Shown here in pieces: positions 9,649 through 26,382 of a stretch of 64,000 nucleotides of DNA. The notes beneath the pieces are model-generated. The model did no database searches. It saw nothing but the letters and a program-made list of their open reading frames with translations, and was not told the origin of the DNA. The translations under genes and the position numbers were made by a program. Source of the stretch: Veillonella denticariosi JCM 15641 (GTDB lineage Bacteria > Bacillota > Negativicutes > Veillonellales > Veillonellaceae); contig NZ_PPDB01000001.1 in assembly GCF_002959855.1 (NCBI RefSeq), forward strand, positions 124,001-188,000. Reading direction: 5' to 3'. Each line of letters begins with the position of its first letter. The stretch's first letter is position 1.

Positions 9649-9712
9649 AAGGACTCCTTTCGTTTTTAACATTTCATATTTATTATATACCGAATCCATT
9701 AGTGGCGGTAGA

Positions 9713-9787
9713 GTGATGGGGTCCTCTCTAAAAGCCTCCAAGGCCACCGCTACGCCGCCAAGTCGTTTTTAGAGAGAACCCCATCAC
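9713..9787 (-). repeat. hairpin repeat unit, copy 1 (minus orientation)
   Basis: Arms of about 20 bases, GTGATGGGGTCCTCTC on one side and GAGAGAACCCCATCAC on the other, enclose a 32-base loop. On the minus strand the loop reads CGACTTGGCGGCGTAGCGG then TGGCCTTGGAGGC. The loop matches that of the unit at 10094-10168 although the arms differ. It lies 65-140 bases upstream of the Sel1-like gene. Confidence 0.85.
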
Positions 9788-9852
9788 CACAAACCACGGT
9801 TGGGATTGCAGTAAATAATAAATATAAAATTTCTAAAGATCGTCGGGGAGAA

Positions 9853-9938
9853 GCGTGTTAGCGATACAAACAAAATAAACCTTTAGCGGACGTAGGTAGA
9901 TAGAAAAAAATAAAGGCACCTCTAAAAAAACGACTTGA
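9853..9938 (+). repeat. direct repeat, copy A
   Basis: A segment with GTTAGCGATACAAACAAA, AACCTTTAGCGG, GGTAGATAGAAAAA and AATAAAGGCACCTCT that recurs at about 10038-10123 with few differences. It ends in a truncated hairpin unit (CGACTTGACA). Confidence 0.85.
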
Positions 9939-10037
9939 CATACCATTTTTCTTCCTATACAAAACAATAACCCTATTTGCTGTAGTTTGTAAAAAAAATA
10001 AATCCTCGAGGAAAACGACTTGGCGGCTCCTAAAAAC

Positions 10038-10123
10038 GCGTTAGCGATACAAACAAAATAAACCTTTAGCGGTGGCCATAGGTAGATAGAAAAAATAAAG
10101 ACACCTCTTGAAAAATGACTTGG
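10038..10123 (+). repeat. direct repeat, copy B
   Basis: Second copy of the segment at 9853-9938. Here it runs into a complete hairpin unit rather than a truncated one. Confidence 0.85.
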
Positions 10124-10168
10124 CGCCGAAGGGGTGGCCTCGGAGGCTTTTCAAGAGGTGTCTTTATT
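10094..10168 (+). repeat. hairpin repeat unit, copy 2, and likely terminator of the upstream-facing glnH-like gene
   Basis: Perfect arms AATAAAGACACCTCTTG / CAAGAGGTGTCTTTATT plus AAAA/TTTT enclose GACTTGGCGCCGAAGG and GGTGGCCTCGGAGGC. On the minus strand the right arm is followed by T-rich sequence, so it can terminate the minus-strand gene ending at 10197. Confidence 0.85.
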
Positions 10169-10196
10169 GATAGCGTACTAAGCGCACGTTAAAGGG

Positions 10197-10979
10197 TTAT
10201 TTTTTTGTATAATCTCCGAACCATTTATCGTAGATTTTTTGGTATGTGCCGTCTTCTTTAAGTTCTTTGAGTGCTTTGTTAACAGCTTGTTGCAGTTCGG
10301 TGTTGCCTTTTTTCACGCCCAGTACGGTGCCCGGGGATTGTGTAGGTTCGCCTACGAGTTTAAGGTCTTTGTCGGCGCCTTGTTTCAGGTAGTACATGGC
10401 AACAGCGTTGTCGAGGATAGCACCGTCAATGGTGCCGGCTTTTAATTCCATGAAGATATTCGCATTGGAATCGATTTCTTTTACCGTCGTTCCCGGAATT
10501 TTATGCGCCATTTCTACAGGGATCGTACCGATCTGAACACCTACGGTTTTATTGGCTAATTCATCCATGTTGTGAATCGTGTCGTTGTCCTTGCGTACGA
10601 CCGTGATAAAGCCGCCCTGATCGAAGTATACGTCTGAGAATTCCAATGCTTTTTCCCGTTCCGGTGTCGCATTGATGCCTGCCGCAATCATGTCAATATC
10701 GCCGGACTGAACAGCCGGAATCAAAGCGTCGAAACCCATGGATTTGAATTCCATTTTCATGCCCAGTTTTTTAGCGATTGCTTCGGACAGATCAACATCG
10801 AAGCCCACATATTTATCGCCTTCCGTAAATTCAAACGGCGGGAACGTCGTCTCGGAACCTACGCGTAATACGCCCTCCTGTTGAGTCATTTTACCTTTTT
10901 CGCTGCCGCAACCGGCCAGAATTCCCATTGCCGCTACAGCTACGAGGGCGAGGGCAGTCAATTTTTTGAACTTGAACAT
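10197..10979 (-). CDS. amino-acid ABC transporter substrate-binding lipoprotein
   Basis: 260 residues. The N-terminus is a lipoprotein signal with lipobox L-A-G-C near residue 24, so the mature protein should be lipid-anchored. The remainder is a family 3 periplasmic binding protein: T-F-P-P-F-E-F near the start of the domain, Y-V-G-F-D-V-D-L, and D-M-I-A-A-G-I-N-A-T-P-E-R motif, typical of glutamine, arginine or cystine binders. No permease or ATPase is adjacent, so the partner subunits must be encoded elsewhere. AGGAGG precedes the start. The ligand cannot be told from sequence. Confidence 0.93.
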   Translation of the reverse strand: MFKFKKLTALALVAVAAMGILAGCGSEKGKMTQQEGVLRVGSETTFPPFEFTEGDKYVGFDVDLSEAIAKKLGMKMEFKSMGFDALIPAVQSGDIDMIAAGINATPEREKALEFSDVYFDQGGFITVVRKDNDTIHNMDELANKTVGVQIGTIPVEMAHKIPGTTVKEIDSNANIFMELKAGTIDGAILDNAVAMYYLKQGADKDLKLVGEPTQSPGTVLGVKKGNTELQQAVNKALKELKEDGTYQKIYDKWFGDYTKK

Positions 10980-11043
10980 AATATCCTCCTAAACCATGTC
11001 ATAAACGTCGGTTTCTACAAATCTGATTATATTGTACGGAATT

Positions 11044-11073
11044 TTGTAACAATAGGCAATAACATTGTATAAT
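11044..11073 (+). promoter_or_regulatory. predicted promoter for the M20 amidohydrolase/HAD pair
   Basis: TTGTAA, 18 bases, TATAAT. The -10 is perfect and the -35 is partial. It lies about 40 bases upstream of the ATG at 11110. Confidence 0.6.
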
Positions 11074-11109
11074 TAAAGGTATTAAATCACGATTTTTCAG
11101 GAGGTGCAT

Positions 11110-12291
11110 ATGTCCCGTATCGATACGTTCCGTTCCGCTTGTGAAAGCTTCGTGCAGGATGCTTTCACGATCAATTATACATTGGCGAAGAATCCGGAGA
11201 TTTCCGGCTGCGAGTTTGAGTCCGTTAAAACCATCGGCGCCGTTCTGGAAAAGCACGGCATTCCCGTTACCTATGAATTCTGCGATTTGCCGACCGCGTT
11301 TAAGGCGTCCGCTGTGAAAGTAGAGAACCCTCAGGGGCGTCTGGCGATTCTCTGTGAATACGACGCACTGCCTGAGGTGGGGCATGCGTGCGGCCATTGC
11401 GCCAGCGGGTCCATGAGCGTATTGGCGGCTCTAGCGTTACATAAAATGCAGGAGGACGGCGCGGCTTTCACCATGGATATCGATATTATCGGGACCCCTG
11501 ACGAGGAGGCGAAGGGGTGCAAGGTCGATATGTGCAATGCCGGCGTGTTCAAGGAATATGATTTGGCGATTATGGTGCATCTCGACGGAAAGGAAACACG
11601 GCCAAACTCGCAGTTTCTCGCCCTCGACTGCTTCCGTGCTCAGTTCCACGGCAAGCCGGCCCATGCGGCAGAGGAGCCCTGGAACGGCGTTAATGCGGTG
11701 AACGGTGTGCAGCTGGCGATTCACGCGATGGATATGCTGCGTCAACAGGTGCGGCCGGAGACGCGTATCGGTACATGGATTATCGCCGGCGGTACCGCAT
11801 CTAACGTGATTCCTCCGTTCGGTGAGCTGGAGGTGACGGTACGCCATACGGAGCGGGAGTACCTGAACGGTGTATCTCAACAGATTCAACAGATTTTTGA
11901 AGGGGCGGCGCTCTGTACGGGAACGACCGTGGATTATGCGTTTTACGGAAATTCCTATGACAGCATGAATCAGAATGAGCGGGGCACACATCTCATCGAA
12001 GAGGTGATGACGGAACTCGGCATTGATTTCGAACCGGGACCGGCCGATATCGGGGGCAGTTCGGATATCGGTAATGTGAGCTTTCAATGTGCGGCCTTTC
12101 ATCCGAAACTTCGCCTGGCCGGTGAAGAGAAGGTGTGCCACTCGAAAGAATTTGCAGCTGCCATGCTGGAGCCGACCATTGAAAAAACAATCCGCGACGG
12201 CGCCGGCATTATCGGCGGGACCTTGCTGCATGTGATGGATGAACCGCAGGTGATGACGGATATTGTAGCGGAGTTTAGGGAGGTCATATGA
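11110..12291 (+). CDS. M20-family amidohydrolase (AbgB/PM20D2-like)
   Basis: 393 residues from ATG 11110, which is preceded by CAGGAGG. A GTG at 11104 is too close to that site. The metal-binding box E-Y-D-A-L-P-E-V-G-H-A-C-G-H and T-P-D-E-E-A (catalytic and ligand Glu pair) identify a di-metal peptidase M20 of the aminoacylase/aminobenzoyl-glutamate hydrolase type. The lid domain has H-G-K-P-A-H-A-A. These enzymes cleave N-acyl amino acids or small dipeptides in the cytoplasm. The gene overlaps the HAD phosphatase by ATGA, so both are translated together. The substrate is unknown. Confidence 0.9.
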   Translation: MSRIDTFRSACESFVQDAFTINYTLAKNPEISGCEFESVKTIGAVLEKHGIPVTYEFCDLPTAFKASAVKVENPQGRLAILCEYDALPEVGHACGHCASGSMSVLAALALHKMQEDGAAFTMDIDIIGTPDEEAKGCKVDMCNAGVFKEYDLAIMVHLDGKETRPNSQFLALDCFRAQFHGKPAHAAEEPWNGVNAVNGVQLAIHAMDMLRQQVRPETRIGTWIIAGGTASNVIPPFGELEVTVRHTEREYLNGVSQQIQQIFEGAALCTGTTVDYAFYGNSYDSMNQNERGTHLIEEVMTELGIDFEPGPADIGGSSDIGNVSFQCAAFHPKLRLAGEEKVCHSKEFAAAMLEPTIEKTIRDGAGIIGGTLLHVMDEPQVMTDIVAEFREVI

Positions 12292-13379
12292 TTCACTCAG
12301 ACAATTTAACGGTTCAAAACTATATTGGCCTCACCGGTGACAAGCCGATCCGATTCATCGTTTCCGATGTGGACGGTACTTTGGTCAATGATGCGAAGAT
12401 AATCGACCCGGAGGTGGTGGATGCCGTTCGTGCCGCCCGTGAAAGCGGTATTCGCGTTGCTATCGCCAGCGGTCGGGCGTGGAATGAAATGCATAATGTT
12501 ATTGACGCATTGCCTTGTTTGCGGTACTTTATGTGTACCAACGGGGCGTACGTCATCGATAAGGATGAAAATAAAAACCTGTTTCATATCGCCTTTGATA
12601 AGAAGCAGGCGCTATATTTGCTGCGCAAACTTCTTGCGTATGGCGTGTACGTGGAGGCTTATGTGAAGGACGAAATCTTCGGCATGTATCCTCCGTCGCG
12701 ATGTATCACGCCTGAACGGTTAACCTCGTGCATTTGTGATCGTCGTGAGGAGTCGACTGACATAGTATCCGGCACATCGATAGACGGGAATCAATCCGTA
12801 TCCGTCGGAGTCAATCATAATTCGGTGAATGGAGGGTTGTCGGATTGCGAGACGGAGCAGTCTACGTTCTTTTTTCGTCCGAATATCCGCCCTTTCATCC
12901 TGGAGACCCGTACCATGGTTTGTGATTTGTTATCTCATATGGAATCCTTAGATGAAGGGCCAGAGAAAATCCAAATTTTCTACGGTGATGAACCGATGCG
13001 TCAGCGCATTTTACAGGACCTGCGTGACGACTATCAGGGATTGGCTCATGACGGAACGGGGCGGGAGCGCTTTTACGATGTGCTGCTGTCCAGTGAGGGC
13101 AATCTGGAATTCGTGTTGCCTCATACTACAAAAGGTACGGCTGTGGAGGCGTTGACACAGCACTGGAGCTTCAGTCCTGACGAGGTGATGACGATCGGCG
13201 ACAGTGAAAATGATCTGTCCATGTTGCGCTTTGCCGGAGCCGGCGTGGCCATGGGCAATGCAAATGCCGATATAAAAGAAGCGGCCCGCTATGAAACGAC
13301 GGATAATAACCACCACGGTGTGGAAAGAGCCATTTACTCGGCAATTGCATATAATGAGGCGTTTCATAAACCGCGATGA
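12288..13379 (+). CDS. Cof-type HAD-superfamily phosphatase
   Basis: 363 residues. Motif I is D-V-D-G-T-L-V (residues 27-33) with the nucleophilic and acid/base aspartates, and the C-terminal I-G-D-S-E-N-D binds magnesium, the hallmarks of Cof/YwpJ-like HAD hydrolases, which dephosphorylate sugar phosphates, FMN or similar compounds. It is about 90 residues longer than the usual 270. The extra length includes a Ser/Asn/Gly-rich, low-complexity stretch near residues 150-190 inside the cap domain. It is coupled to the M20 gene by a 4-base overlap. Confidence 0.88.
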   Translation: MIHSDNLTVQNYIGLTGDKPIRFIVSDVDGTLVNDAKIIDPEVVDAVRAARESGIRVAIASGRAWNEMHNVIDALPCLRYFMCTNGAYVIDKDENKNLFHIAFDKKQALYLLRKLLAYGVYVEAYVKDEIFGMYPPSRCITPERLTSCICDRREESTDIVSGTSIDGNQSVSVGVNHNSVNGGLSDCETEQSTFFFRPNIRPFILETRTMVCDLLSHMESLDEGPEKIQIFYGDEPMRQRILQDLRDDYQGLAHDGTGRERFYDVLLSSEGNLEFVLPHTTKGTAVEALTQHWSFSPDEVMTIGDSENDLSMLRFAGAGVAMGNANADIKEAARYETTDNNHHGVERAIYSAIAYNEAFHKPR

Positions 13380-13511
13380 AATGTGATGATTCGCGATCGT
13401 CACGGATAAATTGGTTTCCCCTAAATAATTGGTGTCTGCTCATCGGAATTAATTGTTTTGCGTAAGCGTTATAGGAACGGAAGGTAGAAGTTGACTGAAA
13501 GGAGGCTGCGC

Positions 13512-13748
13512 ATGGGAAAAATAAAATTCCATATTGATGATACCTGTGTCAAATGCGGTGCCTGTGCTGTAGACTGCCCTGTTCAGTGCATAACGGAAGG
13601 TGCTGTCAAGTTTATCATTGGCAAGGGTTGTATCTCCTGCGGGGACTGTTATTCCATCTGTCCCGTAGGCGCCGTCAAGATGGTAAAATCGGATTCCGTT
13701 AAGATGGTAAGACTTAAGGAAGATGCAAAAGAAGATGGTAGAGATTAA
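13512..13748 (+). CDS. 2[4Fe-4S] ferredoxin
   Basis: 78 residues from ATG 13512, chosen because AAAGGAGG precedes it. Two C-x2-C-x2-C-x3-C-P motifs (C-V-K-C-G-A-C-A-V-D-C-P and C-I-S-C-G-D-C-Y-S-I-C-P) bind two 4Fe-4S clusters, as in clostridial ferredoxins. It carries low-potential electrons in the cytoplasm. The C-terminal 25 residues are a charged tail beyond the usual 55-residue core. No redox partner is next to it. Confidence 0.93.
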   Translation: MGKIKFHIDDTCVKCGACAVDCPVQCITEGAVKFIIGKGCISCGDCYSICPVGAVKMVKSDSVKMVRLKEDAKEDGRD

Positions 13749-14033
13749 ATGCTAACTGGTAACTGCCGGCATTTAATACCGGTGATTAGTTACTGGATGT
13801 TAATTCTTATACTACATAGAATTGGTAATTAGAATGGGTAATGGAATAATCCGAACGTTTAAAAGTTTCGTGAAACTTTCATACGGAACATGTAGAGGCG
13901 AAAAGGCGCCTATGGTATAATAAACTGTAATGAAAACAGGCATTTGTCTGATAAACTCACTTTCGTACAGAAATGTATAACCTATAGAAATCAGTGAATT
14001 TACTTTCACAAATAGATGCATACGGAGGAAGGC
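13749..14033. promoter_or_regulatory. guaA upstream region with extended -10 promoter and hairpins
   Basis: 285 bases without a gene. TGGTATAAT at 13913-13921 is an extended -10 element, giving a leader of about 105 bases. Upstream are inverted repeats GTAACT-N-CCGG ... CCGG-N-AGTTAC (about 13760-13795), AAAGTTTC/GAAACTTT (13862-13879) and AGGCG/CGCCT (about 13895-13910). I looked for a purine riboswitch core and did not find one. Confidence 0.5.
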
Positions 14034-15569
14034 ATGGAAAATAAGGAATTTGTTATTGTTGTTGATTTTGGCGGCCAGTACAATCAGCTGATCGCGCGCC
14101 GCGTTCGTGAAAATCACGTATACTGCGAAGTATATCCATACAACAAGGCATTGGGAAAAATTAAGGAACTGAAACCGCAAGGGATTATCTTTACGGGCGG
14201 ACCTAACAGCGTGTACGAAGAAAATTCCCCGAAAATCGATAAAGAGATTTTTGAACTCGGTATTCCTGTCCTAGGCATGTGCTACGGTATGCAATTTATG
14301 GCACATACATTGGGTGGCGAAGTTAAATCTGCGGACAACCGTGAATTCGGCAAAACACCTACTAAAGTGGACACTACATCTCCATTGTTCAAAGGCTTGG
14401 AAGAAGACCAAGTTGTTTGGATGTCCCATGTTGACTATGTAGCAAAGGTTCCTGAAGGCTTTGAAATTGTTGCACATACTAAGGATTGCCCTGTGGCATC
14501 CATGCAAAATACAGAACGCAAACTATATGCTATGCAATACCATGCAGAAGTATTGCACACTGAACATGGTAAAGAAATGCTTCACAACTTCCTGTACGAA
14601 GTATGTGGTTTCACAGGCACATGGACAATGGCAAACTATGCAAAAACTGCTATTGAAGACATCCGTAACACTGTAGGCGATGGCAAAGTATTATTGGCAT
14701 TGTCCGGCGGTGTAGACAGCTCCGTTGCGGCAGCACTTATCTCTAAAGCTGTAGGCGACCAATTGACTTGTATCTTTGTTGACCATGGTTTAATGCGTAA
14801 AAACGAAGGCGATGAAGTTGAAGCAGCTTTCAAAGATTCCGGCATGCATTTCATCCGTGTCGATGCAGAAAAACGTTTCTTAGATAAATTAGCCGGTCTT
14901 GAAGATCCAGAAGCGAAGCGTAAAGCTATCGGTGAAGAATTTATCCGCGTATTTGAAGACGAAGGCCGTAAAATCGGTTCCGTTGACTTCTTAGCGCAAG
15001 GTACAATCTACCCTGACGTTATCGAGTCCGGTACCGGTGAAGCGGAAGTTATCAAATCTCACCACAACGTAGGCGGCTTGCCTGCAGTTGTAGACTTTAA
15101 AGGCCTTATCGAACCATTGCGCAACCTCTTCAAAGACGAAGTACGTGAACTCGGTTCTGAATTAGGTTTGGCTGATTACCTCGTATGGCGTCAACCATTC
15201 CCGGGACCCGGCCTTGCTATCCGTGTAATGGGCGATATTACAAAGGAAAAACTCGATATTCTGCGTGATGCGGATGCCATTTTCCGTGAAGAAATCGCGA
15301 AAGCCGGACTTGATCGCAGCATCAATCAGTACTTTGCCGTATTAACATCCACACGTACCGTAGGCGTTATGGGTGACTTCCGTACATACGATTATACATT
15401 GGCATTGCGTGGCGTAACGACAACAGACTTCATGACCGCTGACTGGGCACGCATCCCTTACGACGTATTGGATACAATCTCCCGTCGTATCGTAAACGAA
15501 GTACAACACATCAACCGCATCGTGTACGATATTACATCTAAACCACCTGCTACAATTGAGTGGGAATAA
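14034..15569 (+). CDS. guaA: GMP synthase (glutamine-hydrolysing)
   Basis: 511 residues from ATG 14034, preceded by GGAGGAAGGC. An upstream in-frame ATG at 14016 lacks a site. The class I glutamine amidotransferase domain shows G-M-C-Y-G-M-Q with the catalytic Cys, and Y-H-A-E for the triad. The ATP pyrophosphatase P-loop L-S-G-G-V-D-S-S follows, and the protein ends P-P-A-T-I-E-W-E as in other GuaA. It converts XMP to GMP using glutamine and ATP. The AT-rich defence island begins right behind it; the 3' end of guaA is a known insertion site for genomic islands in several bacteria. Confidence 0.98.
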
Positions 15570-15680
15570 TAAGAAATATTGATTTTAAATTCATTAACTA
15601 AACTTTTGAGTAATATTTACTTTAACTGAAAGGTAAAAGAATAGGTTTGAAAGGGAGAGTTTTGGATTTAAAGAGTGCAT

Positions 15681-15713
15681 AAAAGCCTCCCATCATTTTG
15701 GTGGGAGGCTTTT
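15681..15713 (+). terminator. guaA intrinsic terminator
   Basis: The perfect stem AAAAGCCTCCCA / TGGGAGGCTTTT with a CATTTTGG-type loop lies 110 bases after guaA and separates it from the CBASS operon. Confidence 0.85.
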
Positions 15714-15763
15714 GTACAGAAGTGAGTAATAAAATGTAATTTAGTTATTTGGTGTTATAACAA

Positions 15764-15794
15764 TTGAAAGAATTTTTGTGATTTTTTTTATTAT
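15764..15794 (+). promoter_or_regulatory. possible promoter of the CBASS operon
   Basis: TTGAAA, 19 bases, TATTAT, about 40 bases upstream of the first gene. The spacing is long, so this is a weak call. Confidence 0.35.
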
Positions 15795-15834
15795 GTTAAA
15801 GTTAGGCGAAAAAATATGAAAAGAGGAGTATAGT

Positions 15835-17223
15835 ATGGGAGGAAAAGAAGCTTCACGAGGCTTTTTGTATCAAGCATTTGCATCCGTTCTTGAAGCACTG
15901 TGTCAAAAGAATTGGGATAAAATTTATATTGAATTTGAGTCTGAAAAGGATAAGGTTGATATTGCATTAGAAAAAGAGAATAGGATTTTCAAAAGCATTC
16001 AGGTAAAATCGACAATAAATACCTTTACTAAACATTCGCTAAGCACATGGTTACAAGCTCTTATTAGTGATGATGTGGGTTCGAGTGAGTTTGAGTTGTT
16101 TCTAATAGGGCAATGTGATAATGATGCTATTGCATTTATCAATTCAATAGATAAATTTCAACGCAATAACTTGGATAAGAAAACACAAAATTCATTGAAA
16201 GGATTTAATACCGATATCATACAAGGTAGAAAAATAAAATTTAAATGCCACTCTTTTGATATTGATACATTGGAAGCAAAAGTTAGAGATTCTTTACTTA
16301 AATATATTTCAAATAAAAATAAAAGACTGACTTTTGATCAAATTAGCTTCATTGCTTCTGCTACTGTACATGATCAAATAATTTCTTCAACAAATGGTAG
16401 AGGGATTGATAGAGATACATTTGATGAGGCGTTGGAAAAGCGTATTTTTATGGTGGCTGATGAGTGTTCTCCTAAAAGAATATCTATCAGTGTTCAAAGC
16501 TTTACACGTGGAACCGTGATATTGGAAGATATTACGCAATGTTTGTCCTTAATAGAGAGGTTTGAAGGGCGTAATCTGAAAAGTGAATATGATTGGAATA
16601 ATGATATTTATCCCATACTGAGAGACTTTTTGCTTGAAAATACTAACGATAAGGATGCCTATCAAATATATTTAGATACACATTTATCGTTAGCTTTTGC
16701 TGCGGGGAGAGTTCTTGATAGCAAATCAGGTGTTAATATATTTCCAATGCAAAAGACCGCAACAAATGGTATTGAATTATGGGATGTAAAACAATCAGCT
16801 CAGCGAAATTATTCGAATTGGGATATTTCACATGAAATATTTGATAAATCCCAACTGGATTCTGTATTAATACTAAATGTTACTCACCCTATTTATAATG
16901 ATGTGGTTAGATATATTAAAGAAAAAAATCTATCAGTTAGACGTATCATAAATTGTACGCCTAACAAAGTTGGTGCCACAAACTTTTCAATAGAAGATGG
17001 AAACCATGCAGCGAATCTTGCTAATTCTGTTTGTAGTGCTATAGCAGAAAGGTCTATTGAAGAACGACGAGCAACGCTACATATTTTTGCTGCTGCGCCA
17101 AGTGCATTTATGTTTTTTTTAGGACAAAACTCACGTGGATTTGGTAAATGCGTTTTGTATGAATATGATTATGAACAACGAGGTTCTTGCTCATATTCAA
17201 AATCAATAAGTTTCATAAAGTAA
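15835..17223 (+). CDS. cap4: CBASS effector: DUF4297-type nuclease fused to SAVED domain (Cap4-like)
   Basis: 462 residues. Residues 1-120 look like the DUF4297 PD-(D/E)xK nuclease of Cap4: G-F-x-Y-Q near the start, then D42 and the Q56-V-K58-S core expected to bind metal. The C-terminal half (about 270-462) resembles a SAVED sensor domain, with the characteristic late segment L-H-I-F-A-A-A-P-S-A-F-M-F-F-L-G-Q and a final strand ending in Y-S. In known Cap4 proteins a cyclic oligonucleotide made by the CD-NTase binds SAVED and switches on indiscriminate double-stranded DNA cleavage, killing the phage-infected cell. It is first in a tightly packed operon with the nucleotidyltransferase and Cap2/Cap3. 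Domain calls rest on motif reading. Confidence 0.85.
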   Translation: MGGKEASRGFLYQAFASVLEALCQKNWDKIYIEFESEKDKVDIALEKENRIFKSIQVKSTINTFTKHSLSTWLQALISDDVGSSEFELFLIGQCDNDAIAFINSIDKFQRNNLDKKTQNSLKGFNTDIIQGRKIKFKCHSFDIDTLEAKVRDSLLKYISNKNKRLTFDQISFIASATVHDQIISSTNGRGIDRDTFDEALEKRIFMVADECSPKRISISVQSFTRGTVILEDITQCLSLIERFEGRNLKSEYDWNNDIYPILRDFLLENTNDKDAYQIYLDTHLSLAFAAGRVLDSKSGVNIFPMQKTATNGIELWDVKQSAQRNYSNWDISHEIFDKSQLDSVLILNVTHPIYNDVVRYIKEKNLSVRRIINCTPNKVGATNFSIEDGNHAANLANSVCSAIAERSIEERRATLHIFAAAPSAFMFFLGQNSRGFGKCVLYEYDYEQRGSCSYSKSISFIK

Positions 17224-17236
17224 AGGAGAAGTATTT

Positions 17237-18346
17237 ATGTCTATTGTGCCGTCATATTTTAAAGACTTTTTATCTAATATCCGTTTGTCTGAAAATCAAG
17301 TGAATGACTTGAAAACAGGACATACAACGTTAAGAAAAAGATTGGAAGAAGACGAAGCATTATCGAATATTATTGTTAGCACATTTTTGCAGGGGAGCTA
17401 TCGACGTTCTACAGCTGTCAAACCTAAAAATGGGAACAAATCCGATGTTGATATTATTGTTGTAACAAAGTTAGACTCTGAAGAATATACGCCAGAAGAA
17501 GCATTAAATATATTTGTACCTTTTTTAGACAAGTACTACAAAGATAAGTATAGACTCCAAGGCAGATCAATAGGTATAAGTTTAAGTTATGTTGACTTGG
17601 ATATTGTACTTACCTCCGCCCCAAGCAAAAGTGAAATAGGAATATTGCAAGATAGAGCCATTATTTCTGAATATACAATTGAAGAATTTCAGCAAAATTT
17701 GCTTACAAAATCGTTAGATAATGTTTTGGTTGAAAGTACCTATAATATATTTTGTAAATCGGATAGCGAATTGCAATGGAAATCTGATCCACTTCTAATT
17801 CCTGATCGTGAAGTTGAAGAATGGGATAAAACACATCCGCTTGAGCAAATTCGATGGACAATTGAGAAAAACAAGAACTGTAATACACACTATATAAATG
17901 TTGTTAAGGCATTAAAATGGTGGCGTAAGATACAGTGTCCAGATATAAAACATCCAAAGAGCTATCCATTTGAGCATTTTATTGGTGACTGCTGTCCGGA
18001 TGGTATAACTAGTGTAGCGGAGGGTATAGTGTTAACTCTTGAAAATATTGTTTCTCAATATCTTATTAAACCTTTCTTGGCTGATAGAGGTGTACCTGAA
18101 CATGATGTTTTTGCAAGAATTACAAACGACGAATACGCTGATTTTTATGATACAGTTTGCGGTGCTGCTAAAATTGCTCGTGAAGCTTTTGATTGTGAAG
18201 AATTATATGATAGTGTTTGCAAATGGAGAGAGTTATTTGGTACTGAATTCCCCCCTGCTCCAGAACCTACAAAATCTAATTCTTCAACAGGTTTTTCAAC
18301 TCGTACTGAAAAGTCAATAGCTATTCCAGAAGGAAGATTCGCATAA
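17237..18346 (+). CDS. CBASS cGAS/DncV-like nucleotidyltransferase (CD-NTase)
   Basis: 369 residues, start preceded by AAAGGAG. The nucleotidyltransferase core is clear: L-Q-G-S-Y at 51-55, S-D-V-D with D70 and D72, and a third acid in V-D-L-D (D120/D122). This is the fold that makes cyclic di- or trinucleotide second messengers after phage infection. Pairing with a SAVED effector suggests a cyclic trinucleotide product, an inference from characterised CdnD/Cap4 systems. The protein ends in ...G-R-F-A, a small C-terminal residue of the kind that Cap2 conjugates to targets in type II CBASS. It stops directly against the next start codon. Confidence 0.93.
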   Translation: MSIVPSYFKDFLSNIRLSENQVNDLKTGHTTLRKRLEEDEALSNIIVSTFLQGSYRRSTAVKPKNGNKSDVDIIVVTKLDSEEYTPEEALNIFVPFLDKYYKDKYRLQGRSIGISLSYVDLDIVLTSAPSKSEIGILQDRAIISEYTIEEFQQNLLTKSLDNVLVESTYNIFCKSDSELQWKSDPLLIPDREVEEWDKTHPLEQIRWTIEKNKNCNTHYINVVKALKWWRKIQCPDIKHPKSYPFEHFIGDCCPDGITSVAEGIVLTLENIVSQYLIKPFLADRGVPEHDVFARITNDEYADFYDTVCGAAKIAREAFDCEELYDSVCKWRELFGTEFPPAPEPTKSNSSTGFSTRTEKSIAIPEGRFA

Positions 18347-20170
18347 ATGGAAAGAATACAGATTCCTGATAAATTAAAACAGGCTCGAAGAGCTTTGGAT
18401 TCGTTATCACAGGTTAAAATATTAGATGATTGGAATTTTGATAATGAATTAAAAGTTTGGTTTTTACATTTAGGCATATCAATTAAATATGAAACATCTT
18501 ATTTTCCTCAATTGTCCCAGTGGTATGTTATAGCAGAAGATAAATATCCAAAGGGTAAAATTAAGATATATCCTGATGTAGAAAATAGTATTAATGTGAC
18601 ATTATATCATCAAGCTAATAACTCAGAATTGGAAAAGAATGGTCTGTGGAGAAAAGGAGCATTGTGTTTGGAGAGAAACACAATATCTGGTTTTCAAGGA
18701 GAGCCTTATAGTGTTGATGAACGATTGATATACCATGTAAGTAGGGCAATAATTTGGCTTGAGTTAGCGGCACAAAATAAATTAGTATTAGATAATGAGC
18801 TGTTTGAATTGCCTGAGTTTAGTTTGACTTATGTGTCTGAAATGCAATTTGTTTTTTCTGAAGACTGTGTTACTTTTATGCAATGGCAAAGTACTGATTG
18901 TAGATATGGAATCGCAGAATTAGATGTTTACAAAAACAAGCCATCTGTGTATTATGTAAAGTATTTTAAATCATTAAATGGCAATATAGTGCACTATACA
19001 AAATGGGGGAGCTATCTTTCTAAAACGAATATATCCCCGTCAATTAATGCTCCGTGGATACTTTTGGAGCATCTTCCAGTAATTAATGAATGGCAAGCTC
19101 CAGAAACTTTGGATGAGTTAATAACTGTTTGTAATAGTCAACAGATTGATGTTATGAATATATTGGAACAGGTTGTATCAAAGATTAGGGATGGGAAACA
19201 TCATTTACTACTACTTGGCTTTCCAATTCCGAGAGTTTTTGGAGGTGAGACCGAAAGTATTTTTTGGATGGCTATGTATTTACCAGTTTTATCATATGGT
19301 GAAAAGACAGCAAATGGATTCCGAACTAATCACAAAGGATGGTGGTTTCGTGATAAAAGAGACGTTTTAACACGAAAGATGAAATTGGAATGGATTATTT
19401 CAGAAAACTGGAATCAACAAGAAATATTGCAGAGAGGGAAATTGAACGACCTTTTACTTAGAAAAAAGATATTGCTTCTTGGAGCAGGTTGTATCGGCGC
19501 ATCAGTAGCAGAAATACTTGTACGGGCAGGACTATACAACCTTACTATTGCAGATTCTGACATATTTGAAATCGGAAATTTGTCACGTCATGTTCTTAAT
19601 ATAAGTAATATTGGAGAACTTAAAGAACAATCATTGAGCGATTATCTTAATTCCTTAAATCCACATGCAAACATTGAAGTAATTAAAGATATCCTTACAA
19701 TTGATGAAGAATATAAAACAAATATTGATCTAGATAAATACGATATAATTATTGACTGCACAGGAGAACATAATGTTCTTGATATTTTTGAAAAAGTTGT
19801 TTTTACAAAAAGTCATATCATAACCTCTGTATCTGTAGGTTTGGGAGCAAAGCATTTATATATAGCGCTAATGAGTGGCAATTCTTTTAGTTTTGATTCG
19901 TTTTATGAGTTGATTTCGCCATATATACAAAAAGAAAGAGAATTATTTGATGATTACAACTTACCAAGGAATGGAATTGGTTGTTGGCACCCTACATTTC
20001 CTGGAAGAAGTGATGATATCTGGCTTGCAGCTTCTACAGCAGTAAAGGCAATCGAAAATTATATTGTTTTTAAACCAGAGAAGACTCTTTCAGTTGTTTA
20101 TGAACAAAAAGAAAATAATGGGATTTTTGAGGGGTATATATTGGTAGAAAAAAGGAAGATAGATAATTAA
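18347..20170 (+). CDS. cap2: CBASS Cap2: fused E2-E1 ubiquitin-transfer-like enzyme
   Basis: 607 residues beginning immediately after the CD-NTase stop. The N-terminal part (about 1-160) is E2-like with a likely catalytic Cys107 in A-L-C-L-E-R. From about residue 365 there is a ThiF/E1 adenylation domain: L-L-L-G-A-G-C-I-G-A-S-V nucleotide-binding loop, D-S-D-x-F-E-x-x-N-L-S-R-H, and a candidate E1 catalytic Cys546 in G-I-G-C-W. In studied systems Cap2 attaches the CD-NTase C-terminus to a target and primes second-messenger synthesis. It overlaps Cap3 by one base. The call is firm as a type II CBASS component; the catalytic cysteines are placed by analogy. Confidence 0.9.
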   Translation: MERIQIPDKLKQARRALDSLSQVKILDDWNFDNELKVWFLHLGISIKYETSYFPQLSQWYVIAEDKYPKGKIKIYPDVENSINVTLYHQANNSELEKNGLWRKGALCLERNTISGFQGEPYSVDERLIYHVSRAIIWLELAAQNKLVLDNELFELPEFSLTYVSEMQFVFSEDCVTFMQWQSTDCRYGIAELDVYKNKPSVYYVKYFKSLNGNIVHYTKWGSYLSKTNISPSINAPWILLEHLPVINEWQAPETLDELITVCNSQQIDVMNILEQVVSKIRDGKHHLLLLGFPIPRVFGGETESIFWMAMYLPVLSYGEKTANGFRTNHKGWWFRDKRDVLTRKMKLEWIISENWNQQEILQRGKLNDLLLRKKILLLGAGCIGASVAEILVRAGLYNLTIADSDIFEIGNLSRHVLNISNIGELKEQSLSDYLNSLNPHANIEVIKDILTIDEEYKTNIDLDKYDIIIDCTGEHNVLDIFEKVVFTKSHIITSVSVGLGAKHLYIALMSGNSFSFDSFYELISPYIQKERELFDDYNLPRNGIGCWHPTFPGRSDDIWLAASTAVKAIENYIVFKPEKTLSVVYEQKENNGIFEGYILVEKRKIDN

Positions 20171-20640
20171 TGATCTTTAAAGATAAGAGTCAAACATATA
20201 ATATATATTTGGGAAAAGAAATATATAAACAAATGATTGGTTATTGTAATGAATCCAATCCTTATGAAACGGGAGGTGTGTTAATAGGAAATTACTCACA
20301 TAATCAAATGATAGCAGATATTTTACAGATAACACCAGCACCTAAGAACTCTCAACACTCAAAATATAATTTTCGTAGGAGCTCAAGCGGATTAAAAGAG
20401 CTTTTAGATTCAGTATGGAATCAAGGTTTATATTATTTAGGGGAATGGCATTATCATCCGAATGCTTCGGCTGACCCCAGTGATATTGATTTAAAACAAA
20501 TGTTTACCCTGTCCAGGAACAATGATTTAAAATGTCCTGAACCGATATTGATAATTATTGGAGGGGATGAAAGAAATTGGCAGATCTCAGCTAGTGTCTT
20601 TTTTAATAAAAGCTATGTACGTTTAGAATTAGTAGAATAA
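20170..20640 (+). CDS. cap3: CBASS Cap3: JAMM/MPN isopeptidase
   Basis: 156 residues. The JAMM metalloprotease motif is intact: E38-T-G-G-V-L-I-G upstream, then W-H-Y-H-P-N-A-S-A-D-P-S-D-I-D, giving the H-x-H-x7-S-x2-D zinc ligands. Cap3 cleaves the conjugate that Cap2 makes, tuning CD-NTase activity. Its start overlaps the cap2 stop. This completes a type II CBASS operon with gene order effector, CD-NTase, Cap2, Cap3. Confidence 0.92.
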   Translation: MIFKDKSQTYNIYLGKEIYKQMIGYCNESNPYETGGVLIGNYSHNQMIADILQITPAPKNSQHSKYNFRRSSSGLKELLDSVWNQGLYYLGEWHYHPNASADPSDIDLKQMFTLSRNNDLKCPEPILIIIGGDERNWQISASVFFNKSYVRLELVE

Positions 20641-21052
20641 TCAGAGTTCACATCTAAGAGGAAGGAAAAATGTTTGGATAGAAACTTAAAAAATATTTAA
20701 GACATCGACGCAAATTAAATTAAACATGACATATGGTAGAATTTAAGTGTTTTTTATATTGAAATTATGGGATAGGTGTAAATAAAAGTTTTGAAAATAT
20801 TTTTTTTGTTCTGGGGAGCTTTGTATGAAGATTGAAGGTAGGTAGTCGTAATATTTAATGCAAAGATGAAGGTATTAGTTTTTATAGAGGGGAGGACTCT
20901 ATGGATGATGCTCAATAAACAAATCTACTAAGGTCACATGTAGAAAATTTGAACTTGCTGCATAGAGAATTAACTAGAAGATAAGGGTTATTTTAATCTA
21001 TAAAAGAGATAAATAGATATCTTCATTATTATTTTGAGGAGAAGTCATTTTG
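20641..21052 (+). other. AT-rich gap with no intact gene; possible coding debris
   Basis: 412 bases between the CBASS operon and the next module. A short frame near 20920-20985 reads N-L-L-R-S-H-V-E-N-L-N-L-L-H-R-E-L-T-R-R before a stop, and is preceded by an ATG frame that stops after five codons (20901). This looks like a remnant of a helical, perhaps DNA-binding or transposase, protein, but it is too short to name. No terminator hairpin is obvious after cap3. Confidence 0.4.
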
Positions 21053-22492
21053 ATGGAGCGAATTAAACTATCAAAGCATATAAAAAAAGGCGATACATTA
21101 TATACACCTTATACCAATCCAGAAGGGCTTGGAGCCAAGTTAAGTTTATCGAGTTGGTCTAAAAATTGGCTTCCAGAATATTTATGGATTGGACTAATTA
21201 TTCATAAATATGGGAGAAAAATAGGCTTAGAGAAAATTAATAATATTATTTATGAATTAAATTCACACTCAATATGTATTCCTCAGTTTTCCAAAATACA
21301 TGAGTTAGAGCAAGAACAAAGAGAGTATTTTTGGTCTATTATTTTAAACCATGTGGATCGTAATGTATTGGCTCCATTTACAATTGTTGCGACACCAGAT
21401 GTAGATGATGTTTTCTATAATTTCTTTTTTGATTATTCAATAAATATTGATGATAGTATTTCTGAACTTTTCTCGATAATAGAAAAATGTAGTACATTTC
21501 ATGATGAACTTACAACAGATATATGTTTTTCGGTGAATTGGTTCTATATAAAGAATGGGAGATTAAAAATTTCAAGTAAATTAGATCTGTTGCCACAAGC
21601 GTTGACTACTTATTACAAATATAATCATTCTGATGAAAAAATGAGGATATATAGGCCTGCAATAAGGGCAACATTTCAAGGAGTAAGTAGTATTGATAGT
21701 AGTAAAATATTTTCAAAAATGATATGGGAAAAATTGGCAGAAATACTGGAATGTAATCCTTTAGTGATAGTATGGAATGGAAATGAAGAAATGAAACTCT
21801 TTGAAAAAATATCAAAAGTTATTGATTATATTGCCGCTACTAATGATAATAAAAAGATGGATGAAAAATATGCAGTTGTAATGGGGATTACTTGCTATAT
21901 ATATAAAATTTATAAAGAAATATCAGAGAAGAAACTTCAAAATGATATAAGTGGAAGAATACTATTTAGAACTATGACGGAGAGTTATATAAATTTAAAA
22001 TATATTATGTTGCAAGAAGAAGAAATTCCTGATGTGTATGACAGATTTAAAGCTTACGGAATAGGAAAGTATAAGCTTGTTATGGCTAAGCTGAGAGAAA
22101 GTAAATACTCTGTTTCAGATGATGCACAGCTTCATCTAAAAATGATGGAACTTCTTGTTAATGAGGATATGGATGAGGCATTTGTTGATACTAGTTTTGG
22201 ATATTTTGATAAAACACAAATAAACAAAAAATTTATTTCATGTGATGAACAAATGCTGTACGAGATTTATTATGAATATGGAACGAATTTTACACATGGT
22301 TTTTGGGGAGCAATAAGAGAATCTTCAATGCTTTTATGTGACAATCCAACCCACAATTATCATATGATTCCTGATTATAATGCCGAACAAAAATTAAGAA
22401 GTGTACAAGATGATTGTGATATGCTTTTGAAGAAATTGTTTGAACTTATTTCAGGATATATTGAGCTTCCTGATTTCTATTATGCTAATTAA
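21053..22492 (+). CDS. unknown protein, C-terminal half DUF5677-like
   Basis: 479 residues from ATG 21053 with GAGGAGAAG about 10 bases before. An adjacent TTG at 21050 is a less likely start. No signal peptide is seen. The helical C-terminal half resembles DUF5677 in the pattern R-x-L-F-R-T-x-x-E-S-Y-I-N-L-K-Y-I and later N-F-T-H-G-F-W-G-A-I-R, where a His close to the end is typical. The N-terminal 150 residues are a separate helical region that I do not recognise. I found no nuclease, ATPase or HEPN R-x4-6-H motif. It is followed after 21 bases by another orphan gene, so they probably act together. Placement right behind CBASS in an AT-rich island suggests a defence role, which is inference. 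Confidence 0.72.
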   Translation: MERIKLSKHIKKGDTLYTPYTNPEGLGAKLSLSSWSKNWLPEYLWIGLIIHKYGRKIGLEKINNIIYELNSHSICIPQFSKIHELEQEQREYFWSIILNHVDRNVLAPFTIVATPDVDDVFYNFFFDYSINIDDSISELFSIIEKCSTFHDELTTDICFSVNWFYIKNGRLKISSKLDLLPQALTTYYKYNHSDEKMRIYRPAIRATFQGVSSIDSSKIFSKMIWEKLAEILECNPLVIVWNGNEEMKLFEKISKVIDYIAATNDNKKMDEKYAVVMGITCYIYKIYKEISEKKLQNDISGRILFRTMTESYINLKYIMLQEEEIPDVYDRFKAYGIGKYKLVMAKLRESKYSVSDDAQLHLKMMELLVNEDMDEAFVDTSFGYFDKTQINKKFISCDEQMLYEIYYEYGTNFTHGFWGAIRESSMLLCDNPTHNYHMIPDYNAEQKLRSVQDDCDMLLKKLFELISGYIELPDFYYAN

Positions 22493-22513
22493 GTGTAGAA
22501 GGGAGAAATTAGG

Positions 22514-23596
22514 TTGATTGAAACAAAACCCTTAAAGAAAATAATGAATGAATATCTTTCCGTTCTTGAAAAATATGAAGATAAAATTGATTGCTTTACA
22601 CAAGACGATATTAAGAGATTGATAGGTGAAGTCCGCTTGTTTTGGTATCGTCAGAAACGTTATGTATGCTATTTTCTTTCAAATATTGATAAAGAGGATT
22701 ATGTAACATATTTATCAGGTGCTGTAAGATTGGATATAAGTAATTCTGGTCACAAAGAGTATATTATTGTAAAAGGATGTAGGTTAATAAATGATCCATT
22801 CATGAAGATGTCGACTTTTTACCGTGGAACAGATAATGAAATAAATTTTGAAACAGTAAATAGATATCTGAAGGATTGCTTTTTTGATATGCTTGTGCTT
22901 TTACGTGAGTATTCTGAAGATTTTTTTGTGATTCCGTTAGAAACAATAACTATTACTGAAAGTACTGAATATTATGAGGCACTTAATGATGCTGCGAACC
23001 AAATGCTATTGTTATTGTTTTCTAAGCCATATGGCTCTATTGAAGAAATGAAAAATGATAACTCTTCATATGAGGACTTAGAGCGTCATTTACACGGCTG
23101 GATAAAAGAACGGATAGTTTTTGATTCACTTGAAGATAGTAAATTGTCAATAGAAGAAAAGTGTAAAAAAGCTCTCAAAATGGGGGGGAAGTATATTCCT
23201 TCCATGGAGTCGATGAGTGTGGCTGATCTATTTTATATCTTGATTAGTCAACATTGCATGGGGGCGATCGCAACATTTAATTGCATGCAAAACTTAAAAA
23301 TTATTCCATATATTAGGAATGATATTGCTTTTCAATATTTCGATTTGCTTTTTCATTCAAGTATAAATGATAAATTTGATATGTCCGATTATTTGAAAGT
23401 ATTTGTGCCTTATATATTGCAAAAAACATTTGACTTTTCTAAATGGGATTATGCAGAAGTAAAGCAAAAAATGGGTGAAGGTAGTCTTACTGATTATATT
23501 CTTGAGAACATAGTAATTGAAGAAGCTGGTTATCCAAAAATTTCTGATATAGTTGACAAAGCAAATGATTATATAGAAAAACTAAAAATGAATTAA
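22514..23596 (+). CDS. unknown 360-residue protein paired with the DUF5677-like gene
   Basis: 360 residues with a TTG start behind GGGAGAAA. It is soluble and mostly helical, with aromatic-rich stretches (V-R-L-F-W-Y-R-Q-K-R-Y). The first 150 residues include several predicted strands (G-A-V-R-L-D-I, Y-I-I-V-K-G-C-R-L-I). The rest is helical. I recognise no family, catalytic motif or membrane segment. Spacing of 21 bases to the upstream gene implies one transcript. Codon use and AT content match the island, not the flanking core genes. Confidence 0.7.
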   Translation: MIETKPLKKIMNEYLSVLEKYEDKIDCFTQDDIKRLIGEVRLFWYRQKRYVCYFLSNIDKEDYVTYLSGAVRLDISNSGHKEYIIVKGCRLINDPFMKMSTFYRGTDNEINFETVNRYLKDCFFDMLVLLREYSEDFFVIPLETITITESTEYYEALNDAANQMLLLLFSKPYGSIEEMKNDNSSYEDLERHLHGWIKERIVFDSLEDSKLSIEEKCKKALKMGGKYIPSMESMSVADLFYILISQHCMGAIATFNCMQNLKIIPYIRNDIAFQYFDLLFHSSINDKFDMSDYLKVFVPYILQKTFDFSKWDYAEVKQKMGEGSLTDYILENIVIEEAGYPKISDIVDKANDYIEKLKMN

Positions 23597-23698
23597 TTGT
23601 AAAGGAATAGGGTAACTGAATTTTGGGATTTCGTTCCTCTTGAACTAGTAAGTCTATGTCGTTATGTATTGTATATTAATTTGTAAAAACGAGGTTCT

Positions 23699-24109
23699 AT
23701 GAGAACGATAAAATCTTTTAGCGAGCATCTCCAATATTCTCTCCATGATGCAAGAGTACAGAAAATAGAATACGCAGATGATAATTTGATCCTTACTTTT
23801 GAGTACATTTTTTCTTATGAGAACGGTGCTGAACAAACTCATAAGGCTCAAGTCGTGTTTGAGACGTGTGATATAGATTTTTTTGAAATTCTCGTGTTTA
23901 ATAATACAATACTAGATACTTTCACAGGTAAAAGAATTGAGTTACCCCAGTATCAACAGGATTATAGTGAAAGTGAATTTGAGGTCATTACGGAGACCTA
24001 TAATTGGGGACACGCTGTATTCCAGGGGTGGTTATGGACCAAAGGGAATCCAGTACACTGTATAATGAACATATACTTTAAAGGTGATATGGTATATGTA
24101 GTTAAATGA
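23699..24109 (+). CDS. small immunity-like protein
   Basis: 136 residues, rich in aromatic and acidic residues and predicted mostly beta, beginning M-R-T-I-K-S-F-S-E-H-L-Q-Y-S-L-H-D-A. The L-H-D-A turn followed by alternating strands is reminiscent of small immunity proteins of polymorphic toxin systems, but I cannot name the family. The ribosome site is poor (ACGAGGTTCT). It is followed by a decayed ORF and another small gene, a typical picture for an orphan immunity cluster. Confidence 0.6.
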   Translation: MRTIKSFSEHLQYSLHDARVQKIEYADDNLILTFEYIFSYENGAEQTHKAQVVFETCDIDFFEILVFNNTILDTFTGKRIELPQYQQDYSESEFEVITETYNWGHAVFQGWLWTKGNPVHCIMNIYFKGDMVYVVK

Positions 24110-24119
24110 GGCGTAAAAT

Positions 24120-24299
24120 GAGGAATATCTTGGTATCAACTTTATTGATGGTGAAGATGTCATCTTTGATAAGTAAATAGGAGCTAATGCGTTGCCACTT
24201 TATGAAACTGTAGATTATTCGGCTCTACAAGCAGGTACAGAGTTCTTTATCATGGAAGGTGCCAATATTGTTATGGGAACAAGGATATGGAGACTATAA
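24120..24299 (+). pseudogene. remnant of a small gene with an in-frame stop
   Basis: One frame reads E-E-Y-L-G-I-N-F-I-D-G-E-D-V-I-F-D-K, a TAA at 24174-24176, then I-G-A-N-A-L-P-L-Y-E-T-V-D-Y-S-A-L and onwards to a stop at 24297. The frame is otherwise clean and looks like the C-terminal half of a protein, without a start codon or ribosome site. The 3' end overlaps the next gene by 13 bases. It is probably a truncated immunity-like gene; the identity is unknown. Confidence 0.5.
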
Positions 24300-24796
24300 A
24301 AGAATTTTTAGATAGTAACATATATTTAGATATTATAAAAGAACTAGGTGTTGACAACTTTAATCAAGACCTACAGAGTGTTGAAATAGAAGAAGTAAAA
24401 AATCGATTGAAACAAAGACAATTCTTATTAGAAGGGTTTAATTGTAAGGTGCTTTCAGATAAAGAGATGGTGCAGTTTTACAAGCAAATGATAGAAGAAT
24501 ATCGAAAAGATATTATCATTTGGAGTAAGAAGTTTTGGCAATATAGTGATGTTACTATTGAGGCGTATCCTGATGGTGAATTTCCTATAGGTGAGGAAAT
24601 ATCTGAAGATGACAAATCAACTACAATTGAAATAGGAAAATATTCTATAACGAGTGTTGGTTTGTATATAATTGAATTTGATCTTTTGAAGAATCATCAA
24701 GAAATATTAGCTGACTATTATAAAAGAATAGCTATTCCTCGGGCCGCAAAATATGCAAAAGACTTGATAGCATTTTATCAAGAGGTTTTTACTTAA
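24287..24796 (+). CDS. small unknown protein in the immunity-like cluster
   Basis: 169 residues, acidic, predicted mainly helical with a central beta portion (V-T-I-E-A-Y-P-D-G-E-F-P-I-G). I recognise no family. Its start lies within the tail of the decayed ORF before it, a sign that both once formed an operon or that the region was rearranged. The ribosome site (AACAAGG) is weak. It is closed by a clear terminator. Confidence 0.6.
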   Translation: METIKEFLDSNIYLDIIKELGVDNFNQDLQSVEIEEVKNRLKQRQFLLEGFNCKVLSDKEMVQFYKQMIEEYRKDIIIWSKKFWQYSDVTIEAYPDGEFPIGEEISEDDKSTTIEIGKYSITSVGLYIIEFDLLKNHQEILADYYKRIAIPRAAKYAKDLIAFYQEVFT

Positions 24797-24816
24797 GATA
24801 TTTAAATATAATAATT

Positions 24817-24850
24817 AAGCCAACAGAGTATATCCTCTGTTGGCTTTTTT
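24817..24850 (+). terminator. intrinsic terminator closing the immunity-like cluster
   Basis: AAGCCAACAGAG / CTCTGTTGGCTT stem with TATATC loop and a run of T. Confidence 0.88.
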
Positions 24851-24948
24851 AGCGTTATAAGTTGTTTTCAAAGCAATAGTTTTATCCGCTGAGGTCCATT
24901 ATATGCAAAGTTTATAAAATATATTGAAGAATAATTGGAGGAAATAAA

Positions 24949-25242
24949 ATGGCAAAAACATTAGTGGCGTATTTTAGCGCCACTGGAATAACAAAGAACA
25001 TAGCGGAGCTGCAGCTAAAGCAGATATTTATAAGATTAAGCCTACAGTTCCATATACTGAGGCAGATCTTAACTAGATGGATATAGCACCAACGATTATT
25101 AATACATTCCTTGAAAGTTATGATTTCTCAGGAAAGAAGATTGTTCTATTTGCAGCGTCTGGCGGCAGCGGCTTTGGAAATGCGGTTACGGAACTAAAAT
25201 CTTCCACACCAGGTGCCGATATTATTGAGGGTGCGCTTTATT
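24949..25242 (+). pseudogene. decayed flavodoxin gene
   Basis: A good ribosome site (GGAGGAAATAAA) leads to M-A-K-T-L-V-A-Y-F-S-A-T-G-I-T-K-N, the FMN phosphate-binding loop of a flavodoxin. The frame is then lost near 24998-25010. The sequence continues in another frame as A-D-I-Y-K-I-K-P-T-V-P-Y-T-E-A-D-L-N, hits a TAG at 25074, and jumps to [19 protein letters not shown] with [12 protein letters not shown], the later half of the same fold. The middle (around the W-W-Y loop) is missing. So there is at least one frameshift, one stop and one internal deletion. Confidence 0.85.
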
Positions 25243-25281
25243 TATTTTATGTATTCCCTTTCTTATATATTCTATTTCTAT

Positions 25282-26382
25282 TTATATGGATTCTTTTACC
25301 TGCTTGATACCCTTATCGGTCAGCGCATATCGTCCTTCCGTTACATAGAGCAAACCGCGTTTCTTGAGATTGGCCGCAGCCTGATATGTATAGTCCGCCG
25401 TCCAGTTCAGATGTTCATGGATGGTGCCGATACCGTTTTCAACGGGCGCAACAGGCGTGTTCATATGTGTATAGATATGGCACAACATCATCGTTTCCCG
25501 ATAGTGGCGACGCAGATGGCGTTGCCGACGGTATGTGGCGATATAACCGGTCTTAGGCGTAGCGATGACGGCGATAATCAGGCCCATGCCGATGGTGGTG
25601 GCGATGGACCCTGCAATGGATACATCCATGGTGAAAGCAATCTCCGTGCCGATGACGGCACAGGCGATACCGATGAGAATACTGCCTATGAGCATGGCTT
25701 TCACGGAGTCGGTCCATAAATAGGCAATAACCGCAGGACCGATCATAAGTCCTATAACGAGGATTGCGCCGACCGCCTGGAATGATGCCACTACGGTGAG
25801 GGAGACCATGGTCATCAATACATAGTGGATAAGAATCGGTGTAAATCCGAAAAGCCCGGCCAATAGGGAATCGAAGGTGGATATTTTCAGTTCCTTGTAG
25901 AACAGAATGACCAGCAATAGATTGATCGTGGCCACTGAGAGCGAAATCCATAGCGATACGGGACCTAAATCAGTTCCGTTCACGATGAATCTGTCGAAAG
26001 GCGCAAACGCGATTTCCCCGAGCAATGCCGTATCTACGTCAAGGTGAGCGTTTCCGCTGTAGAGGCTCACCAGAATGATGGCGCCCGAAAAGAGCAGGGG
26101 AAAGATGATGCCGATAGACGCGTCTTCGTTGACGAGGTGTGTATTATGAATCATTTCTATGAGCCATACAGTTCCGACCCCGACGAGCGTAGCCCCTACG
26201 AGCAGGAACGGCGAATTCAAGTCCTTCGTCATGAAGAAGGCCAGTACAATGCCTAAGAAAACGGTGTGCGTAATGGCGTCGGCCATCATAGACATGCGGC
26301 GCAGTACCAGAAAGACACCGGGCACGGCGCAGGTGATGGAGACCGCCATAGCGATGAGTAAAATCTCGGTGTGAGCTGTCAT
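25282..26382 (-). CDS. metal ABC transporter permease with C-terminal winged-helix-like domain (TroD-like)
   Basis: 366 residues. About eight membrane helices in residues 1-285 match the ABC-3 family permeases for Mn, Zn or Fe. Residues about 295-366 form an extra soluble domain with an H-x3[24 protein letters not shown] helix and a following wing ([13 protein letters not shown]), resembling a DtxR/MarR winged helix. That could sense metal or tune transport; it is not proven to bind DNA. It is last in the operon and overlaps the previous permease gene by 4 bases. Confidence 0.88.

Follow-up and report, generated by a model that had tools for sequence, protein, structure and literature searches.

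Two adjacent genes behind a CBASS operon of Veillonella denticariosi raise the question of whether they form a defence system, and whether such a system is a new one. We analysed them within a stretch of 64,000 nucleotides, here called the window. The original prediction had taken the pair for a candidate new defence system. The features concerned are listed below.

15835..20640, + strand: CBASS operon (SAVED effector termed endonuclease, CD-NTase, E1-E2, JAB), from PADLOC best matches
20972..21052, + strand: ditAB leader, with a ribosome-binding-like GAGGAG at 21036-21041
21053..22492, + strand: ditA, encoding the 479-residue DitA with DUF5677 in its C-terminal half; alternative TTG start at 21050
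22514..23596, + strand: ditB, encoding the 360-residue DitB; TTG start

Both open reading frames, of 479 and 360 residues and 21 bases apart, were found where they had been predicted. The product of ditA has 479 residues from the ATG at 21053 and 480 from the TTG at 21050, and the TTG start of ditB is also present in the copy at locus L028. In 1000 mononucleotide shuffles of the region, stop-free runs reached at most 161 codons, versus 480 and 360 for ditA and ditB. Against the 81%-identical L028 copies, dN and dS were 0.095 and 0.46 for ditA, and 0.096 and 0.40 for ditB. Our results showed that purifying selection acts on both genes.

The identity of the pair was examined with the models of PADLOC-DB (version 2023). 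DitA matched model PDLC03826 with 592 bits (1.9e-178; residues 3-479 on model positions 2-480 of 486) and DitB matched PDLC03827 with 337 bits (2e-101; residues 2-359 on positions 4-359 of 361), near full length in both cases. DitA was the single PADLOC-DB family matched by the ditA product, and the ditB product had, besides DitB, a weak second family at 0.011. DitA and DitB are presumably the two proteins of Aditi, a system reportedly attributed to Millman et al. in 2022.

The DUF5677-like C-terminal half predicted for the first protein was confirmed by Pfam (PF18928, 3.6e-17, residues 274-432 of the 480-residue form). Among 14 named control genomes, the DUF5677 search matched one, E. coli, and the DitA model matched none, though that E. 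coli has a DUF5677 protein. DUF5677 was also present in 8 genomes of a 150-genome class sample, and five DUF5677 carriers within the 100-genome DitA search (G063, G081, G085, G093 and G094) gave no DitA match. This silence of the model in DUF5677-bearing genomes showed that the match in the window is DitA proper and not a generic DUF5677 protein.

The second protein had been described as an orphan, which holds for Pfam, where it has no significant family, but not for PADLOC, where it is DitB. NCBIfam and PHROGs gave nothing significant for either protein. A new, undescribed two-gene defence system would fit these empty searches and the defence neighbourhood. However, models of both proteins were already in PADLOC-DB in 2023 and were matched over nearly their full length, so the term undescribed is not supported, and we regard this explanation as very improbable. 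The window pair is very probably a divergent but clear copy of Aditi, with a predicted anti-phage role. Judged from its protein families, it is a putative defence system, but one that already has a name. Excerpts of published work place Aditi among listed defence systems with reference to earlier work (PMC10121019), list it in a 2026 review as a defence system with the mechanism "Unknown" (PMC12926258), and, in work on Streptococcus suis (PMC12813430), describe it as a recent discovery. A literature search by the gene names DitA and DitB found no paper on the Aditi system, and a search for DUF5677 returned, in excerpt, a paper on salmonellosis severity.

The occurrence of the two proteins was determined in several overlapping genome samples. 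DitA was found in 4 of 100 relatives (2 of them full length), in 3 of 398 genomes of a phylum sample, in 4 of 200 class genomes searched with our own alignment (3 full length), and in 1 of 10 genomes from the order of G357 and 2 of 21 from that of G480, the last two samples adding a single fragment. DitB was detected in 3 of the 398 genomes, twice at full length and both times adjoining DitA. Four plasmid records matched DitA, two of them across 80% or more of the protein, and one matched DitB (tblastn); phage records gave no DitA match, and a pattern scan of IMG/VR with DitA gave none. Aditi was present in 2 of the 14 genomes examined of the window's genus. This distribution appears rare and patchy, as for mobile defence genes.

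Ten distinct full-length DitA loci were available (the window, L005, L006, L007, L014, L015, L016, L018, L019 and L028). DitB followed directly 3' of DitA on the same strand in nine of them, with a gap of -26 to +30 bases and an overlap of the two genes in 3 of the 9 pairs; DitB of L015 was supported at 1.5e-4 with 19% identity. The expected co-occurrence across genomes was thus observed. These counts leave out the DitA fragments of L003 and L020 (about 62-65 residues), L008 (47 residues), L004 and L023, two Rhodococcus plasmid records with 137 residues matched, and a DitB fragment with four stops (L013). The tenth locus, L019, holds an intact distant DitA (7363-8811, 25% identity) with no DitB adjoining and a dCTPase-family gene next to it. 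A distant DitA can therefore stand alone, and this one is perhaps a one-gene derivative of Aditi.

Mobile settings were found at two loci. The nearest relative of the window ditAB is at L028, where window 20972-23596 corresponds to 9642-12265 with 86.5% DNA identity (blastn) and both block limits are set by insertion-sequence ends. Its inverted ends, 62 bases long and 95% complementary, lie beside transposase genes, and the right one begins at the ditB stop codon. The L028 stretch 9559-14500, with ditAB between inverted repeat ends, resembles a composite transposon. In G012, which belongs to the window's genus, ditAB is not behind guaA but next to a tyrosine integrase and a TrwC relaxase.

Defence-rich neighbourhoods had been proposed as a mark of such a system. 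At L005, L006, L007, L018 and L019, 10 of 10 selected neighbouring proteins matched PADLOC families (C5 methyltransferase, Orf5/HEC-06, AbiE, type I restriction, PDC-S49, dCTPase, PDC-S25 and type II/IIG methyltransferase). The proteins scanned with PADLOC, here and at the guaA site described below, were picked from their first residues, mostly for defence-like looks, so these results are not rates. The L019 DitA stretch contains dCTPase and SIR2-like PDC-S25 defence genes. At L014, L015, L016 and L028, annotation, ORF starts and Pfam gave no known defence neighbour. The housekeeping-looking stretch around ditAB in L014 speaks against a constant island residence of Aditi. This L014 pair is on a 163-kb Clostridioides difficile plasmid record (NZ_CP149720.1 41807-59213) and is surrounded by rlmH and chromosome-like genes; the record may be a mislabelled chromosomal piece. 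Taken together, family match, pairing, mobile settings and some defence neighbours argue for the predicted two-gene defence module, but not for its novelty.

The pair had also been predicted to follow the CBASS operon directly. CBASS was confirmed upstream by the PADLOC best matches of its four proteins (PDLC00735, PDLC00822, PDLC00848 and PDLC00890), and its effector matched Pfam SAVED at 4.8e-43, with the Cap4 nuclease half below the cut-off (0.012). However, ditA starts 412 bases after the end of the JAB gene (20640) on the same strand, so ditAB is not packed into the operon. The AT-rich composition said to be common to the pair and the island was confirmed, the GC content being 0.28-0.32 over 20-25 kb and 0.32-0.34 over the CBASS part (16-20 kb), versus about 0.40-0.52 in the near flanks. 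A terminator-like site was looked for between the JAB gene and ditA, and none was seen. Promoter-like sites were fewer than expected from shuffles (43 versus a mean of 53.6), and we therefore propose no promoter. Rfam at gathering thresholds gave no match over 13.5-26 kb of the window.

The common strand, the 412-base distance, the similar low GC and the lack of a terminator-like site would suit a CBASS accessory module that functions only with the CBASS operon. In that case a constant association with the CBASS cyclase operon would be expected, but none of the four CBASS proteins had a match at the 9 other DitA loci (tblastn, E <= 0.01, in flanks of limited length, where a very distant CBASS would escape). 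Consistently, the nearest copy, at L028, stands alone and has only the leader of about 80 bases in common with the 5' flank of the window copy. An accessory role in CBASS is thus highly unlikely. The neighbouring CBASS with its SAVED effector and ditAB lie in the same insert and have a similarly low GC, but no common protein family. With Aditi, the window pair has in common two near full-length proteins, their order, their adjacency and a defence-bearing mobile region; no difference was shown, except that, by tblastn over the ten loci, the window copy alone adjoins CBASS. These results indicate that ditAB is independent of CBASS and is a self-contained mobile two-gene cassette.

The insert that carries both is limited by guaA (14016-15569) and by an ABC-transporter operon on the opposite strand from 25282 (names read from translations), and homology with relatives begins again on its right at about 25276-25291. 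At the right edge, 24949-25215 is the remnant of a broken gene that we take to be flavodoxin-like, starting with MAKTLVAYFSATG. The DNA 3' of guaA was sought in 13 other genomes of the genus, and the window block of 15.72-23.66 kb was not found behind guaA in any of them (blastn). All 10 genomes compared (L044-L053) had other contents at the site of window 15570-25280, read as far as the transporter or the end of the available DNA; L056 provided 203 bases only, and L054 and L055 matched at the guaA end only. Among the proteins scanned, which left out G008, defence-family genes (PADLOC) were present behind guaA in 4 of these 10 genomes, one of them weak. They were a C5 methyltransferase with a methyl-directed AspBHI-type nuclease in G012, a type IIG restriction-modification enzyme in G002, the candidate system PDC-S28 in G007, and weak matches to AAA ATPases such as GajA and PtuA in G009. 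For three of the ten proteins scanned (from G006, G009 and G013), neither library gave a match at 1e-5. In G003, G010 and G011 no large cassette was seen, and the site held small genes and acetyltransferase-like genes, with transport genes in addition in G003 (read from sequence).

A second partial guaA 3' end of 70 bases (79%) was observed 3.2 kb downstream in G013 (L045 3177-3246), the kind of trace expected from an element integrated at guaA. In excerpts of published work, guaA is an island integration site in other bacteria. Our results showed that the site 3' of guaA varies in content across the genus and is defence-bearing. Because genomes of the same genus bear other contents there, it is probably a hotspot in which CBASS and Aditi are separate cargo.

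Two small ORFs within 23699-24796 (136 and 169 residues, no significant family) were considered as further parts of Aditi and rejected. DNA matching these genes, at 23699 and 24287, recurs behind guaA in varying order in relatives without ditAB there, so both are residents of the guaA site, possibly immunity-like ones.

Neither protein was predicted to have a known catalytic motif. This was true for the motifs scanned: Walker A was absent from DitA and DitB, and none of the HEPN, HD and PD-(D/E)xK-like patterns was common to the whole family, the sole scanned pattern common to it being H434-x2-H437 in DitA. However, the DUF5677 half carries a conserved polar constellation. When ten DitA sequences were aligned with five further DUF5677 proteins, R306, E310, Y407 and H415 were invariant in all 15, and S or T occupied position 411 throughout. 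R306-x3-E310 and S/T411-x3-H415 are thereby kept in the DUF5677 half of DitA, and the proteins outside Aditi have the same R-x3-E and Y-x3-S/T-x3-H in the domain. In contrast, C429, H434 and H437 of C429-x4-H434-x2-H437 were identical in 10 of 10 DitA, and this trio was present in none of the five other proteins, which have 284-321 residues versus 479 for DitA; one of them, L060, has a histidine aligned with H434. The conserved DUF5677 residues look like a functional site, or could be structural.

The HEPN ribonuclease motif is R-x4-6-H. A pattern of this type occurred in 8 of 10 DitA, with at best 4 of 10 sharing a start column, and in 0 of 9 DitB, and the residue five before H415 in DitA was G, A, D, L or T. 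A conserved HEPN motif was thus not found, although a relation at the level of the fold may exist.

Structure prediction of each protein yielded models but no significant fold match. The AlphaFold model of DitA had a pLDDT of 61.9 and a pTM of 0.47, with much of the DUF5677 half below 50; its fold search gave nothing usable and hardly covered the better-modelled N-terminal half, and no solved structure was found for DitA by sequence. The DitB model reached a pLDDT of 77.8 (residues 60-81 below 50) and yielded nothing in Foldseek searches of the PDB and the viral library at E <= 0.001. By sequence, DitB matched two UMP-CMP kinases at E 0.06-0.07, and its best VIA match (Z 7.2) was a designed repeat protein on residues 1-136. 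Four CDPS entries, TyrRS and PvcA aligned with about residues 57-311 (Z 3.6-4.7, rmsd 4.3-5.5, 160-178 residues aligned), where a Z below 8 may mean a common arrangement only. Together with the Foldseek CDPS matches 4q24 and 9i5m (probability 0.08), they would suit a Rossmann-like DitB enzyme, distantly like CDPS or class I aminoacyl-tRNA synthetases, that has DitA as its partner and charged tRNA or a nucleotide as its substrate. Given the low Z, the poorly modelled residues 60-81 and the lack of sequence support from Pfam, such an enzyme is improbable.

Between the window and L005-L007, dN was 0.49-0.51 for ditB and 0.27-0.29 for ditA. The faster change of ditB would fit a partner that faces the phage. 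The highest 19-residue hydropathy was 0.99 in DitA and 1.29 in DitB. The conserved DUF5677 residues, the dN rates and the hydropathy tentatively favour a soluble effector, DitA, with DitB as sensor or regulator, a mechanism that we hold with low confidence. DitB would sense the infection or restrain DitA. The DUF5677 half of DitA would be the effector through the cluster R306/E310/S-T411/H415, and a possible metal site of C429, H434 and H437 may take part in its action. The target would most likely be nucleic acid or nucleotide, and the effector would not act on the membrane.

A toxin-antitoxin-like pair, with DitA as toxin and DitB as antidote or guard, overlaps this mechanism and is compatible with membership in Aditi. 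Tight linkage, the gene overlaps and the mobile settings are consistent with it, but L019 keeps its distant DitA intact without an adjoining DitB, and both proteins are large; we consider it a rather unlikely explanation. For the favoured effector and sensor pair, a bolder and comparably doubtful version sees in the DUF5677 half an enzyme not yet recognised as such (R-x3-E ... Y-x3-S/T-x3-H and the DitA-only C-x4-H-x2-H) that, when signalled by DitB, would destroy or modify nucleic acid or nucleotides.

In conclusion, our results remove a false lead for a new defence system and place a copy of Aditi in this genus. The comparison also gives concrete DitA residues to mutate. If the enzyme reading of DitA is true, the DUF5677 family at large would become a source of effectors.
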